Shown in pieces: positions 23,751-31,327 of a stretch of 64,000 bases of DNA. Both the position numbers and the translations under genes were made by a program. Below the pieces are notes generated by a model. That model searched no databases. It was not told the origin of the DNA and saw only the letters and a program-made list of their open reading frames with translations. Source of the stretch: Pirellulales bacterium (GTDB taxonomy: Bacteria > Planctomycetota > Planctomycetia > Pirellulales > Thermoguttaceae); assembly GCA_016931995.1 (NCBI GenBank), contig JAFGDS010000009.1:1-64000 (forward strand), given 5' to 3'. Position 1 is the first letter of the stretch, and every line of letters starts with the position of its first letter.

Positions 23751-25235
23751 GTGCCCTACCTCCTCAACCTCCTCTACCTCCTCGTTCTCCTCGCCGCCGC
23801 GCCGTGGCTGGCGTGGAGGGCCGTGCGCACGGGGCGCTATCGGGAGGGGTTCGCCGAGAAGGTGCTGGGCCGGGCGCCGCGGCGCGGGAACGGCGCGGGT
23901 TCTGCTGAAGGGTCTGCTGAAGGGTCTGCTAAAGGGTCTGCTAAAGGGTCTGCTAAAGGGTCTGCTAAAGGGTCTGCTAAAGGGTCTGCTAAAGGGGACA
24001 GTCCCATTTTCGCTGAGACGAAAATGGGGACAGTCCCCGCGAAAATCGGGGCAGTCCCCCGCTTCTGGCTCCACGCCGTGAGTGTCGGCGAGGTGAATCT
24101 GCTCACGCGGCTGGTCGAAGAGATCGACCGGGGCGATTCCGGCGTCGAGTGTGTCATCTCGACCACGACCAAGACGGGCATGGACCTGGCCCGGAGGAAA
24201 TTCCCCGGGCACACCGTGTTCTACTGCCCGTTGGACTTCAGTTGGGCCGTCCGCCAGGCGATGCGGCGCGCGCGGCCCGACGTGCTCGTGCTGGCCGAGC
24301 TCGAGCTGTGGCCCAATCTGATCCGCGCGGCGGGCGAGGCGGGCGCGCGGGTGGCCGTGGTCAACGGCCGCTTGAGCCCCCGGAGCTTCCGTGGCTACCG
24401 GTGGATCCGGCCGCTGGTGGCCCGGGTGTTGCGGCGGATCGATCTCGTGGCCGTGCAGGACGAGCAATACGCCGAGCGATTCCGCGCGCTGGGCGCCCGG
24501 GCGGAGACGGTCCACGTCACCGGCTCGATGAAATACGACGGCGCGCGGACCGATCGCGCCAATCCGGCGACGCGGCGTCTGGCCGAGTTGGCCGGGATCG
24601 GGCCCGACGACGTCGTGTTCCTCGCCGGAAGCACCCAGGAGGGCGAGGAGGCCGCGGCGCTGGCGGCGTTTGGCCAACTGGCCGACGCCTGGCCCCGGCT
24701 GAAGCTCATCCTCGTGCCGCGCCACCCGGAGCGGTTCGACGCGGTCGCCCGGCTGCTGGACGAATCGGGAGTGGATTGGCGTCGCCGCGGCGAGCTGGAG
24801 CGCCGGCCGCCGGGGCTCGGCACGCGGGTGTTTCTGATCGACGCCGTGGGCGAGCTCGGCGCGTGGTGGGGTACCGCCCGGGTGGCCTTCGTCGGCGGCA
24901 GCTTTGGCCGTCGCGGCGGGCAGAACATGATCGAGCCGGCCGCCTACGGCGCGGCGGTGTCGTTCGGCCCGAACACGTGGAACTTCCGCGACGTGGTCGC
25001 CACCCTGCTTGCCCGCGACGCCGCCGTGGTGGTGCCCGACGCCCCGGCCCTGGCCCAATTCGTCCGCCGCTGCCTGGAAGAGCCCGACTACGCCGACGCC
25101 CTCGGCCGCCGCGCCCGCCAGACGGTCGCCGCCCAGTTGGGCGCCACCGAGCGGACGGTGCGGCTTCTGAGGGGGCTGGGGGCGGGGGGCGGGGGGTTCG
25201 GGACTCGGGGTTCGGGGATCGGGACTGGGGGTTAG
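23751..25235 (+). CDS. waaA: 3-deoxy-D-manno-octulosonic acid (Kdo) transferase with in-frame repeat insertion
   Basis: This 494-residue GT30 enzyme transfers Kdo from CMP-Kdo to lipid A precursor at the cytoplasmic membrane. An N-terminal membrane anchor (PYLLNLLYLLVLLAAAPWLA) is followed by the GT30 hallmark WLHAVSVGEVNLL, then the acceptor-site region FYCPLDFSWAV and AELELWPN. Later come VTGSMKYD, FLAGSTQEGEEAA, LVPRHPERF and FVGGSFGRRGGQNMIEPAAYG. Between GRAPRRGNGA and RFWLHAVSV lies a 54-codon insertion made of eight 12-base units (GSAE or GSAK) plus a palindromic GGGGACAGTCCC element. The normal family member has only a short linker there. The C-terminus also runs into a glycine-rich low-complexity tail. 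The start is taken as GTG at 23751, which puts the membrane anchor at the N-terminus. Confidence 0.9.
   Translation: MPYLLNLLYLLVLLAAAPWLAWRAVRTGRYREGFAEKVLGRAPRRGNGAGSAEGSAEGSAKGSAKGSAKGSAKGSAKGSAKGDSPIFAETKMGTVPAKIGAVPRFWLHAVSVGEVNLLTRLVEEIDRGDSGVECVISTTTKTGMDLARRKFPGHTVFYCPLDFSWAVRQAMRRARPDVLVLAELELWPNLIRAAGEAGARVAVVNGRLSPRSFRGYRWIRPLVARVLRRIDLVAVQDEQYAERFRALGARAETVHVTGSMKYDGARTDRANPATRRLAELAGIGPDDVVFLAGSTQEGEEAAALAAFGQLADAWPRLKLILVPRHPERFDAVARLLDESGVDWRRRGELERRPPGLGTRVFLIDAVGELGAWWGTARVAFVGGSFGRRGGQNMIEPAAYGAAVSFGPNTWNFRDVVATLLARDAAVVVPDAPALAQFVRRCLEEPDYADALGRRARQTVAAQLGATERTVRLLRGLGAGGGGFGTRGSGIGTGG
23898..23993 (+). repeat. 12-base tandem minisatellite inside waaA (8 units)
   Basis: Eight head-to-tail 12-base units of the type GGGTCTGCTAAA run without interruption; the first two end in GAA and the other six in AAA. 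Because the unit is a multiple of three it encodes GSAE twice and GSAK six times in frame. Identical units suggest recent expansion and likely length variation between strains. It directly abuts the palindromic element at 23994. Confidence 0.95.
23994..24059 (+). repeat. GGGGACAGTCCC palindromic element inside waaA
   Basis: GGGGACAGTCCCATTTTCG is followed by an inverted CGAAAATGGGGACAGTCCCC copy and a third partial GGGGCAGTCCCC. The arms pair around GCTGAGA. It is translated as GDSPIFAETKMGTVP and continues to AVP. A second copy lies in the GT9 gene at 28963 to 29007, on the opposite strand, and is read in the same frame there. Confidence 0.9.
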
Positions 25236-27864: not shown

Positions 27865-29331
27865 CTAAGGCAGGTCCATGCCGTGGTGGCATCCGTCCGA
27901 CGCGCGGCCCAGCTCGGTGAAGTCCACTTCGTATTGCAGCGCCTCGTCCACCGCCCGGGCGACCGCTTCCGGCAAGAGCCCTCTCATGCACGGATGGCCC
28001 GCCACCGGACAAACCTCGCGGTGGCACGGCCGGCACGGCGCGTCGTGGCGCAACACCGTGACGCCGCGTCCAACGGGCTGCCACTGCTCGGGGCAATTCG
28101 TTCCGCTAAACAGAGCCACCACCGGCGTGTCCACGGCAGCCGCCAGATGGGCAGGACCCGAATCCGCGCCCACCAGCGCCGCCGCGCGCTCCAAAAGCGC
28201 CGCCAACTCCATCACGCCCAGCCGACCCGTCCAGTCGCGCGCGCCGGGCCAGTCGCGGCCCTCCAAAATCCGCCGCGCGATTATACGGTCCGCCCGGCTT
28301 CCCACCAACACGAGTTCCCGCCCCCCGCGAAGGATCAATCGGCCCAAAAGCTCCCGCCAGTGTTCGATCGGCCACTGCTTGGCGGGCGTGCCGGCCGATA
28401 CGTGAAGAACCAGAAACGGAGCGGCGACGTTCGACTCGGCCAGCAGCTTGTCCACCGTCCGCCGCGCCGCCACCGGGGGTCGCAGCCGCGGACGCACGTC
28501 GTCCTCCACCGCCTCAATCCCAAGTTGCGCAAGCAGCGCGCGGCGCGATTCGACTTCCGGCCGGTCGGGCACGTACGCCGCGCTGTCGGTGAGCAGAAAT
28601 CCGCCGCCGCCGGCCGCCCAACCCAGCCGCCTTCGCGCGCCGGCCAGCCAAAGCAGCAAGGCCAGCGGGAATTCGCCCCGCACGTCGATGCCCAGGTCGT
28701 ACCGCTCGCGCCGCAGCCGCCAACCCCACCAGCACGTCGCCATTGCCCAACCCAACCGCCCGGCGCGCGAAAACCGGTTCACCCGCGACGCGAACACCCG
28801 ATCCACCTCCGGCATCGCCTCGAACAGCGCCCGATTCCACGCCCCGGCCAACACGTCGATCCGCGCGTCGGGATACCTTTTCCGCAGCGCCGCCAGCATC
28901 CCGCTCGACAAGACCGCGTCGCCCATGTGATCGAGCTGAACGACGAGGATCGACTGCACTCCGGGGACTGTCCCAATTTTCGTCTCGGCGAAAATGGGAC
29001 TGTCCCCTTCGATCGCTGTGGCGGCGTGCGAAGCCGCTTGTGTGCCACTGGCTCCGCCAGTGCTTGCTCCCGAGGCGGAGGGAGAACCACGCTCGCTGGG
29101 CTGGTCTTGGTTCTCGTTGATGTCACACTGGCAAAGCCAGTGGCACACGGCCCTCCCCTCTCCCGCCCGCGGGAGAGGGGTCGGGGGAGAGGGGATTCTC
29201 CATCGAACCGCGCGAAACAACCCCTCCCCGATCCAGTCAATCACCCCAAACAGCACGCGCCAACGAAGCCGCACGTAGCGATACTGGCCCAGCGGGCGGC
29301 GTCGGAATCGCGAAGGACCGCATCCAAACAC
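27865..29331 (-). CDS. GT9-type heptosyltransferase-like glycosyltransferase with in-frame repeat insertion
   Basis: This 488-residue protein is a glycosyltransferase family 9 enzyme of the lipopolysaccharide heptosyltransferase type. The core starts SILVVQLDHMGDAVLSSGML and includes LHVSAGTPAKQWPIEHW, GADSGPAHLAAAVDTPVVALF and a Cys-rich CRPCHREVCPV segment near the end. Upstream of the core is a short basic helix-rich N-terminus (YRYVRLRWRVLFGVIDWIG), then an 82-codon insertion of palindromic repeats. A GTG at 29331 lies one base after the stop of the upstream GT4 gene, so the N-terminus chosen gives a coupled start. If translation instead began at the core (near 28950) the repeat would be untranslated; the open frame and the conserved-looking RYVRLRWRVLFG segment favour the long form. 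Sugar specificity is unknown. Confidence 0.82.
   Translation of the reverse strand: MFGCGPSRFRRRPLGQYRYVRLRWRVLFGVIDWIGEGLFRAVRWRIPSPPTPLPRAGEGRAVCHWLCQCDINENQDQPSERGSPSASGASTGGASGTQAASHAATAIEGDSPIFAETKIGTVPGVQSILVVQLDHMGDAVLSSGMLAALRKRYPDARIDVLAGAWNRALFEAMPEVDRVFASRVNRFSRAGRLGWAMATCWWGWRLRRERYDLGIDVRGEFPLALLLWLAGARRRLGWAAGGGGFLLTDSAAYVPDRPEVESRRALLAQLGIEAVEDDVRPRLRPPVAARRTVDKLLAESNVAAPFLVLHVSAGTPAKQWPIEHWRELLGRLILRGGRELVLVGSRADRIIARRILEGRDWPGARDWTGRLGVMELAALLERAAALVGADSGPAHLAAAVDTPVVALFSGTNCPEQWQPVGRGVTVLRHDAPCRPCHREVCPVAGHPCMRGLLPEAVARAVDEALQYEVDFTELGRASDGCHHGMDLP
28957..29202 (-). repeat. Composite repeat insertion inside the GT9 gene (82 codons)
   Basis: Reading along the gene, the insertion contains a CTCTCCCGC/GCGGGAGAG element (about 29154 to 29194), a CACTGGCAAAGCCAGTG element (29126 to 29142), a CACTGGCTCCGCCAGTG element (29046 to 29062), half of an AAGCCGC element, and the GGGGACTGTCCC element (28963 to 29007). 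The encoded peptides include [17 protein letters not shown] and GDSPIFAETK. There is no stop or frame change. Confidence 0.9.
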
Positions 29332-29332
29332 G

Positions 29333-30913
29333 TCAGAGAACCTCCATGTACGCCTCGTGCGTCGCCCGGGCGGCCGCCGCCCAGGTGTAATGCTCCACCG
29401 TCCACCGGGCCAGCTCGGGGTTGCGATCCCGCGCCGCCGCCCGCAACAGAGCCCGACGGATCTCGCCGATCCGCCCGGGCCGAACGTACTGGGCCCAATC
29501 GCCAAAATACTCCCGGGCGGCTCCGCCCTCGGGCAGCACCAGCGGCGTGCCCGACATGGCCGCCTCGATCGCCGCCAGGCCCGGCGTCTCGAACCAACTG
29601 GCTAACGCCAGACACCGGCACGCGGCATGGCCCGACGCCAGCAGCGGGTCGTCGTGGTCGATCCGCCCGAGGAACGTCACCTCCGGCCCCGCCTCGCGCC
29701 GGCATCGCGCCTCGTACGCCTCGTGGCCCGGCACGGCATCGCCCAGGATCACCAACCGCAACCCCGTGCCCCGCACCGCCCGAATCAGATCGAGCTGGTT
29801 CTTCCGCGGCTCGATCCGCGCGGGGCACAAAACAAAATCGGGCACTCCAACAGGGGCGAGGGGCTCGGGGCGGGGGACGGCCCTGTTTCTCCCCTCGCCC
29901 GCCCGCGGGAGAGGGGCCGGGGGTGAGGGGACCATGCCCTTGCCCGCTTGCGTGCCACTGGCTCCGCCAGTGCTCCCGGATTGTGTGCCACTGGCTCCGC
30001 CAGTGCTTGTTTTCGCTGGGCCCCCCTCGTTGTCTTCCGCAGCCAGCACTTCCCCATACCGCTCGGCAAACGCCTCTGGCCTTGCCGCCGCGAACCGCGG
30101 ATCGGCCCCGTTGGGTACCACCCGGATCCGCTCCGGCCGCACGCCGAAATACCGCACGAGTTGCCAAGCCTCGGCCTTCGAGTTCGGCAGCAACAGGTCC
30201 GCCGCGTGATAGAGCCGCCGCCGCCACGACGGCAGCCGAGGGCACGCCGCCCGGGCCAGAAACCGCCCACACGCCGCCACCCGGCCCGCCAAGGTCTTCC
30301 CACCCCGCCAATACCCCGCCAGATCGAACCACGCGATCGTCGAAACCACCACCCGCACCCCCCGCCGCCTCGCCTCCTCCGCCACCGCCACGAACTCCGG
30401 CCGGCTGCCAAACAGGTGAAGTATGTCTACCTTGGCCAAAAGGTCGTCGAGCACCGGCCGTGTGCCACTGGCTCCGCCAGTGCTCCGGAATCGAGTGCCA
30501 CTGGCTCCGCCAGTGCTTATTCCAGAGCCGGACAGAGATCCACGCTCACTCAGACGTTCCTGACTCCGCTTCGTTTCACACGGGCCAAGCCCGTGGCACG
30601 CTGGTGCCGCGACGTGCGAAGCCGCAAGCGGCTTTGGAGGAGCAAAGGCCGTCCTCCCCTCTCCCGCTTGCGGGAGAGGGGCCTGGGGTGAGGGATTGCC
30701 GCTTCTCCCCTCTCCCGCCCGCGGGAGAGGGGCCGGGGGTGAGGGGATTTCGACACCGACCGATCCATGCCCCCCCCCCACGAAAACAACCTCCACCCCC
30801 ATCTCCGCCAGCGCCGCTCCCGTCTCCTCCATCTGCACCTCGCCCCCGCCGGGGGAGGTCACGGCCCGGCAACCCGGCAGGAGGGCCACTCGGAAGCCCT
30901 GGGCCCGAGACAC
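29333..30913 (-). CDS. GT4-type glycosyltransferase with two in-frame repeat insertions
   Basis: This glycosyltransferase family 4 protein of about 526 residues begins with the GT4 N-terminal element VALLPGCRAVTSPGGGEVQM. It has the acceptor-domain part DLAGYWRGGKTL and LLLPNSKAEAWQLVRYF, then VVPNGADPRF, and the donor-site block PARIEPRKNQLDLI, SWFETPGLAAIEAAMSG and PLVLPEGGAAREY, where the Glu in the SWFETPG segment is the conserved catalytic or phosphate-contacting Glu. Two blocks of repeat-derived sequence, 97 codons and 57 codons, interrupt it after GGGHGSVGVE and after AAEDNEGG. Removing them restores a normal GT4 spacing of about 372 residues. The start is uncertain: GTG at 30913 is used, with GTG at 30889 and ATG at 30970 as alternatives. 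It overlaps the GT9 and small-membrane-protein operon. Confidence 0.82.
   Translation of the reverse strand: MSRAQGFRVALLPGCRAVTSPGGGEVQMEETGAALAEMGVEVVFVGGGHGSVGVEIPSPPAPLPRAGEGRSGNPSPQAPLPQAGEGRTAFAPPKPLAASHVAAPACHGLGPCETKRSQERLSERGSLSGSGISTGGASGTRFRSTGGASGTRPVLDDLLAKVDILHLFGSRPEFVAVAEEARRRGVRVVVSTIAWFDLAGYWRGGKTLAGRVAACGRFLARAACPRLPSWRRRLYHAADLLLPNSKAEAWQLVRYFGVRPERIRVVPNGADPRFAAARPEAFAERYGEVLAAEDNEGGPAKTSTGGASGTQSGSTGGASGTQAGKGMVPSPPAPLPRAGEGRNRAVPRPEPLAPVGVPDFVLCPARIEPRKNQLDLIRAVRGTGLRLVILGDAVPGHEAYEARCRREAGPEVTFLGRIDHDDPLLASGHAACRCLALASWFETPGLAAIEAAMSGTPLVLPEGGAAREYFGDWAQYVRPGRIGEIRRALLRAAARDRNPELARWTVEHYTWAAAARATHEAYMEVL
29852..30022 (-). repeat. Repeat insertion 2 inside the GT4 gene (57 codons)
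   Basis: Along the gene it carries two CACTGGCTCCGCCAGTG elements (29989 to 30005 and 29956 to 29972) and one CTCGCCCGC/GCGGGAGAG element (about 29891 to 29930). They are read as STGGASGT twice and PLPRAGEGR once. No stop codon occurs in the frame. Confidence 0.9.
30458..30748 (-). repeat. Repeat insertion 1 inside the GT4 gene (97 codons)
   Basis: Along the gene it carries two CTCTCCCGC/GCGGGAGAG elements (30705 to 30748 and 30654 to 30695), an AAGCCGCAAGCGGCTT palindrome (30619 to 30634), an inverted GGGCTTGGCCC-like element near 30580 and two CACTGGCTCCGCCAGTG elements (30499 to 30515 and 30466 to 30482). The peptides include PLPRAGEGR, PLPQAGEGR and STGGASGT twice. Confidence 0.9.
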
Positions 30914-31327
30914 GCCTGCAAGGTGGTATTTTATGGCCACCGATCGAGGTATTTCAAGGGCGTTTGCCACACCAAAACCAACTCAAGCCGACAAAGGACC
31001 TCTTGTAAAAGCGAGGCGCCATCTTGCGCTTTCACGGCGCGGAGGTCGAGCCCAATCAGTTGGGGGCATTGGGAATAGCCATAAACCGTTTTCTAAATAC
31101 ATCTTATGGCGATTCCCATACATGCTGTCGAGCGACGTGAAAAACCACCCTTTATGAGGGGGCCATGGCAAGAAAAATCCTCGGTTTTGTTTGTCAGGTA
31201 ATAGGTGTGATCGGACAATCATAAGCAGTGAATGGGCGGGCGAGCGTGTTGCTTGTCCTGGCTGATTCATTGGGCATTTGAAAGTGACCCAGAATAAGTG
31301 GAACTACACCATACGGAGGAAGACGCA
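30914..31327. other. Intergenic region upstream of the PEP-CTERM gene
   Basis: I see no gene or repeat in these 414 bases. The base composition is distinctly lower in GC than the neighbours, and the last 15 bases hold the GGAGGAAG ribosome binding site of the PEP-CTERM gene. A promoter for that gene must lie here but I could not identify convincing -35/-10 boxes. Confidence 0.5.

Follow-up and report, generated by a model that had tools for sequence, protein, structure and literature searches.

A short palindromic repeat inside planctomycete genes, with a frame skew probably due mostly to its junction motif and to stop codons

Two genes on opposite strands of the window, the 64,000-nt stretch of Pirellulales DNA analysed here, encode nearly the same peptide from the same frame of a short repeated element. 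A preliminary description took this agreement as a hint that the frame or the orientation of insertion is constrained. What is the element, and is a shared frame a sign of constraint? Frames were named from the element itself: in F0 the initial G of GGGGAC opens a codon, and the R frames are read on the other strand from the 3' end. The features concerned are as follows.

23751..25235, plus strand: host gene waaA (Kdo transferase), supported by PF04413 (E 6.8e-57) and by orthologues
23898..23993, plus strand: array of 8 x 12-bp tandem repeats (GGGTCTGCTAAA/GGGTCTGCTGAA) directly 5' of the element, absent from orthologues
23994..24038, plus strand: element copy 1, inside waaA in frame F0 (GDSPIFAETKMGTVP), absent from 22 orthologues
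24039..24059, plus strand: partial third unit of the element (GCGAAAATCGGGGCAGTCCCC), in frame; the third unit also follows other copies
27865..29283, minus strand: host gene, glycosyltransferase family 9 (GT9), with a putative start; PF01075, E 8.5e-41
28963..29007, minus strand: element copy 2, inside the GT9 gene in frame F0 (GDSPIFAETKIGTVP), absent from orthologues
29020..29196, no strand assigned: other palindromic repeats (CACTGGCTCCGCCAGTG, CACTGGCAAAGCCAGTG, CCCCTCTCCCGCCCGCGGGAGAGGGG) in the GT9 linker insert, distinct in sequence from the element
29197-29268, minus strand: GT9 N-terminal helix, common to orthologues (query 1-24 matched here)

Both translations were checked. Translated in the GT9 frame, the reverse complement of 28963-29007 gives GDSPIFAETKIGTVP, and 23994-24038 gives GDSPIFAETKMGTVP in the waaA frame, so the near-identical peptide reported earlier in the two genes, in the same frame and orientation of the element, is confirmed as GDSPIFAETK(I/M)GTVP. 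The two copies are laid out as GGGGACAGTCCC-ATTTTCG-CYGAGA-CGAAAAT-KGGGACAGTCCCC and form a 48-nt inverted-repeat pair that is 96% complementary. With up to one mismatch allowed, GGGGACTGTCCC has 8 matches in the window against 0.52 expected. In waaA, a stretch of about 53 amino acids containing the element is missing from 22 orthologues of the same family and order. These relatives read ...PRR-xxx-YWLHAVSVGEV, and the extra residues here are those of the element and of a GSAE/GSAK tandem array, which corresponds to the 12-bp repeats at 23898-23993 and belongs to the same insert. In GT9 orthologues the N-terminal helix (VRLRWRVLFGVIDWIG) runs into ILVVQLDHMGD without the element. Judged by these alignments, both window copies are insertions inside genes that are absent from orthologues. 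The GT9 copy was at first placed at a gene boundary, a placement overturned by the orthologues that share the N-terminal helix.

The range 28957-29202 also takes in unrelated palindromes of the same GT9 insert (CACTGGC..., CCCTCTCCCGC...GCGGGAGAGGGG). The adjoining GT4-like glycosyltransferase gene (29333-30970, minus strand) contains several other palindromes (CACTGGCTCCGCCAGTG; CCCCTCTCCCGCCCGCGGGAGAGGGG), and the frame caller split it into coding and non-coding-like pieces. Genes here thus house other repeat families as well.

The element is an imperfect hairpin of about 45 nt (44-45 nt), RAR-GGGGACAGTCCC-NTTTTCG-loop-CGAAAAT-NGGGACAGTCCCC, sometimes followed by a 24-nt third unit. Folded as single-stranded DNA, the hairpin reaches -17 to -20 kcal/mol with z about -6.5. 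A search of Rfam with the element gave no match. The window belongs to a 5.43-Mb Pirellulales assembly in 153 contigs (G000), where the 19-nt left half with up to 3 mismatches finds 118 half-sites; the reversed control finds 0. Matches occur in 19/60 relatives and are confined to one family, bar one single match with 1 mismatch elsewhere in the order. Carriers are assigned by GTDB to Pirellulales/Thermoguttaceae/Planctomycetota, and one short contig is labelled Bryobacterales. Copies were studied within about 1.0 Mb of stretches chosen around matches. Target-site duplications were absent from 75/78 copies, and a copy's own two flanks agreed no better than flanks paired by shuffling.

Of the short copies, about 41% are intergenic. 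Genic copies lie in dozens of hosts, including the core enzymes MnmE, RmlD, dihydrolipoyl dehydrogenase (LPD), Kdo transferase, NuoA and a DinG-like helicase, and the host open reading frames are intact. Most copies are free of stops in most frames and most have a length that is a multiple of 3 nt. Compared with orthologues, the copies in LPD, MnmE, RmlD, waaA and GT9 are clean loop insertions that keep the reading frame. Near-identical peptides in unrelated enzymes could suggest a functional module that was domesticated and spread to many proteins. This is very unlikely, as the hosts have no common function, orthologues in many relatives do without the peptide, a large share of copies is intergenic, and the genic copies, read in five frames, yield at least five different peptides.

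All genic copies in the sample were then assigned a frame, since random frames would speak against the proposed constraint. The coding frame was called from the flanks only, with the element masked, using a home-made caller based on a self-trained hexamer Viterbi model. In G000, 46/89 copies lie in genes: F0 21, F1 3, F2 0, R0 14, R1 5 and R2 3. Uniform frames are rejected (chi2 52.6, Monte Carlo p 5e-5). These 46 include both discovery copies; when they are removed, F0 accounts for 19/44 and the conclusion is unchanged. The same pipeline applied to 500 random 45-nt windows made 393 genic calls with F0 the rarest (45), hence the caller does not manufacture F0. Orientation is unskewed (24 F, 22 R). 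The frame distribution is therefore non-random, as the preliminary description had hinted, and both orientations are common. The preliminary description had put the chance of a shared frame at 1/6. Given the genome-wide skew, that chance comes to about 0.32 when the squared frequencies of the 46 observed frames are summed. Agreement in frame between two genic copies is thus expected in roughly a third of cases, and the window pair is itself unremarkable.

The 45-mers, unlike the 44-mers, have a length divisible by three, so copies are most informatively compared by the codon phase of their left junction. The left (5') junction falls on a codon boundary in 33/46 genic copies of G000 (p 1e-7 against 1/3). 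In other genomes it does so in 16/26 short genic copies where 1/3 is expected (p=0.003), giving 49/72 pooled. The favoured feature is a 5' junction on a codon boundary rather than one frame or one orientation. A chance coincidence of the window copies under uniform frames is scarcely credible: a single pair weighs only 1/6, but uniformity is rejected across 46 copies and the junction phase recurs in independent genomes.

Among the other carriers, G033 has 0 genic copies (23/23 intergenic). The 80-nt form in G013 was left out as too uncertain, with 11 'in-gene' calls in mixed frames, 3 of them with stops. G002 was left out as a replicate since in most of its copies the element forms the end of one multicopy IS-like sequence. 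At loci such as L139, L140 and L144 (match at 1501) of that genome, the element lies near the end of this sequence with flanks ...CCACTTTCGCCAA / AACTTGTTCTTGGACGGCCGC, and so has hitch-hiked on a larger element.

The sequence (Y)RAR stands directly 5' of nearly every copy, genic or not (for example CGAA, CAAA, TGAA or CGAG), with A at -2 in 72/74. In coding DNA, RAR coincides with a codon boundary in 50-60% of cases, to be compared with the 49/72 observed for the element. The motif derived from intergenic copies, when applied to coding DNA, predicts F0.31, F1.13, F2.07, R0.29, R1.12 and R2.09, and real junction tetramers resampled through the same pipeline give F0 28% and R0 22%. About 40% of intergenic copies have a stop in F2. 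With zero fitted parameters, a model multiplying junction preference by openness brings 67 copies from a log-likelihood of -120.1 to one of -99.9. The fit is imperfect (Monte Carlo p 0.016 in G000, 0.007 pooled) owing to an excess of F0 in 45-mers, the absence of F2 and an excess of R0 in 44-mers. Under this model the purine motif at the junction and the stops in F2 would largely explain the frame skew, that is most of it and not all. The constraint implied by the preliminary description is real, but it seems to operate chiefly at the DNA junction and via stop codons.

The residual F0 excess may mean that the peptide is under weak selection or that the model is imperfect. Selection could also be the whole cause, with insertion random over frames and F0 and R0 kept because host proteins tolerate GDSPIFAxxKIGTVP and GDCPDFRAxENGTVP better than what the other frames encode, which is basic or hydrophobic. 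We regard this as possible though doubtful. Dicodon scores of the 45-mer consensus are indeed least unfavourable for F0 and R0 (-1.1 and -1.3), and F0 exceeds the junction model. However, scores for the 44-mer are off the observed frames (F0 scores worst, yet holds 7/28 copies), and both orientations and at least five frames are in use. Generic coding-likeness of the peptide was tried as the cause of the skew and rejected for want of a gain in likelihood: a fitted term improves on openness by only 0.6 log units, and on the junction model by 0.36. A more specific proposal is that the host filters retained insertions by frame and that the F0 peptide is specifically tolerated or useful, with a mobile hairpin repeatedly supplying it to unrelated enzymes; we consider this unlikely.

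Insertion lengths bear on the same choice. Relative to orthologues, the insertions measure 19 (LPD), 26 (MnmE), 33 (RmlD) and about 53 (waaA) amino acids. These lengths are, respectively, 13, 9, 30 and about 93 nt in excess of the element with its third unit. Because the insertions are longer than the element, RAR may have come with the insert rather than been the target, a point in favour of peptide selection. The junction argument requires RAR to be a feature of the target; if RAR was inserted, the phase preference would need another cause, of which selection is the obvious one.

The best account, to which we give a probability of roughly 55%, is that the element is a non-coding palindromic repeat of the REP/RPE-like kind whose frame skew comes mostly from the junction motif and stops. 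The repeat has dispersed through this Pirellulales genome and is present in some relatives within its family. Where it entered tolerant loops or linkers it survives as an in-frame peptide, because most copies are free of stops in most frames and most are a multiple of three long. In GC-rich coding DNA, (Y)RAR would fall on codon boundaries more often than elsewhere, as Glu/Lys codons in one orientation and Phe/Leu codons in the other, and for this reason codon-boundary insertions (F0, and R0 for 45-mers) would dominate. Stop codons would remove part of F2. Mobilisation in trans by a TnpA-REP-like enzyme would be a natural guess.

Among known repeats, the Rickettsia palindromic elements (RPEs) lie between and inside conserved genes, where they add in-frame peptides without destroying the protein (PMC2229807, PMC3767692). 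The planctomycete element is likewise a short palindrome, genic and intergenic, frame-preserving and absent from orthologues. It differs in its size (44-45 nt against 105-146 bp), in being GC-rich, in its unrelated sequence and its restriction to a planctomycete family, and in having a frame skew that was measured and traced to the junction. Rickettsia Gmk carrying an RPE is reportedly still made and active. REPs also occur inside genes, as in the GTAG/CGTC REPs (PMC3733652) and TnpA-REP systems (PMC8266576), with intragenic copies in Opitutus terrae and Rickettsia conorii. The element resembles them as a high-copy imperfect hairpin with a mismatch or bulge in the stem, a short 5' motif and no target-site duplication. 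In contrast, its 5' motif is (Y)RAR and not a GTAG or CGTC tetranucleotide, and 0/7 loci of Y1 (RAYT) transposase genes (PF01797) in the assembled G000 have the element in the flanks taken. Because it lacks both the tag and a flanked transposase, the element was not filed as a REP member. Bacterial MITEs (Correia/NEMIS, ERIC) are non-autonomous repeats that in some cases are joined in frame with genes (PMC2229807), but the element is shorter and has neither TA termini nor target-site duplications. It is a new family of in-frame palindromic repeats of the known class typified by REPs and Rickettsia RPEs. No earlier description was found in the literature searched, whose coverage left out most subscription journals.

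The element adds a well-sampled planctomycete case to the few palindromic repeats known to invade protein-coding genes. It illustrates in detail how a junction motif and stops can produce a frame bias before peptide function is invoked. For annotators, GDSPIFAETKIGTVP-type peptides in planctomycete proteins are to be read as derived from a DNA repeat and not as protein domains.

Some other genic copies have a 9-18-nt near-duplication of RARGG just upstream. At L372 (1250-2150), long inverted repeats (CCCAGGGTAGCGGCTGCGCCGC...) and CACTGGC palindromes flank a Y1 transposase gene; this unit, a tyrosine transposase between terminal inverted repeats, may be connected with the CACTGGC family instead of the present element. 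An 80-nt form of the element, with the same ends and a TGTGAACGGTTAC tail, is common and mostly intergenic in some relatives, and occurs at loci of G033, G013 and G035 (for example L119-L138). In G033 a conserved 25-nt stretch, ACCTGTCCCCTTCCCGCGGCGCGAG, lies upstream of the 80-nt form, and contigs often begin at the repeat, suggesting that the assembly breaks there.
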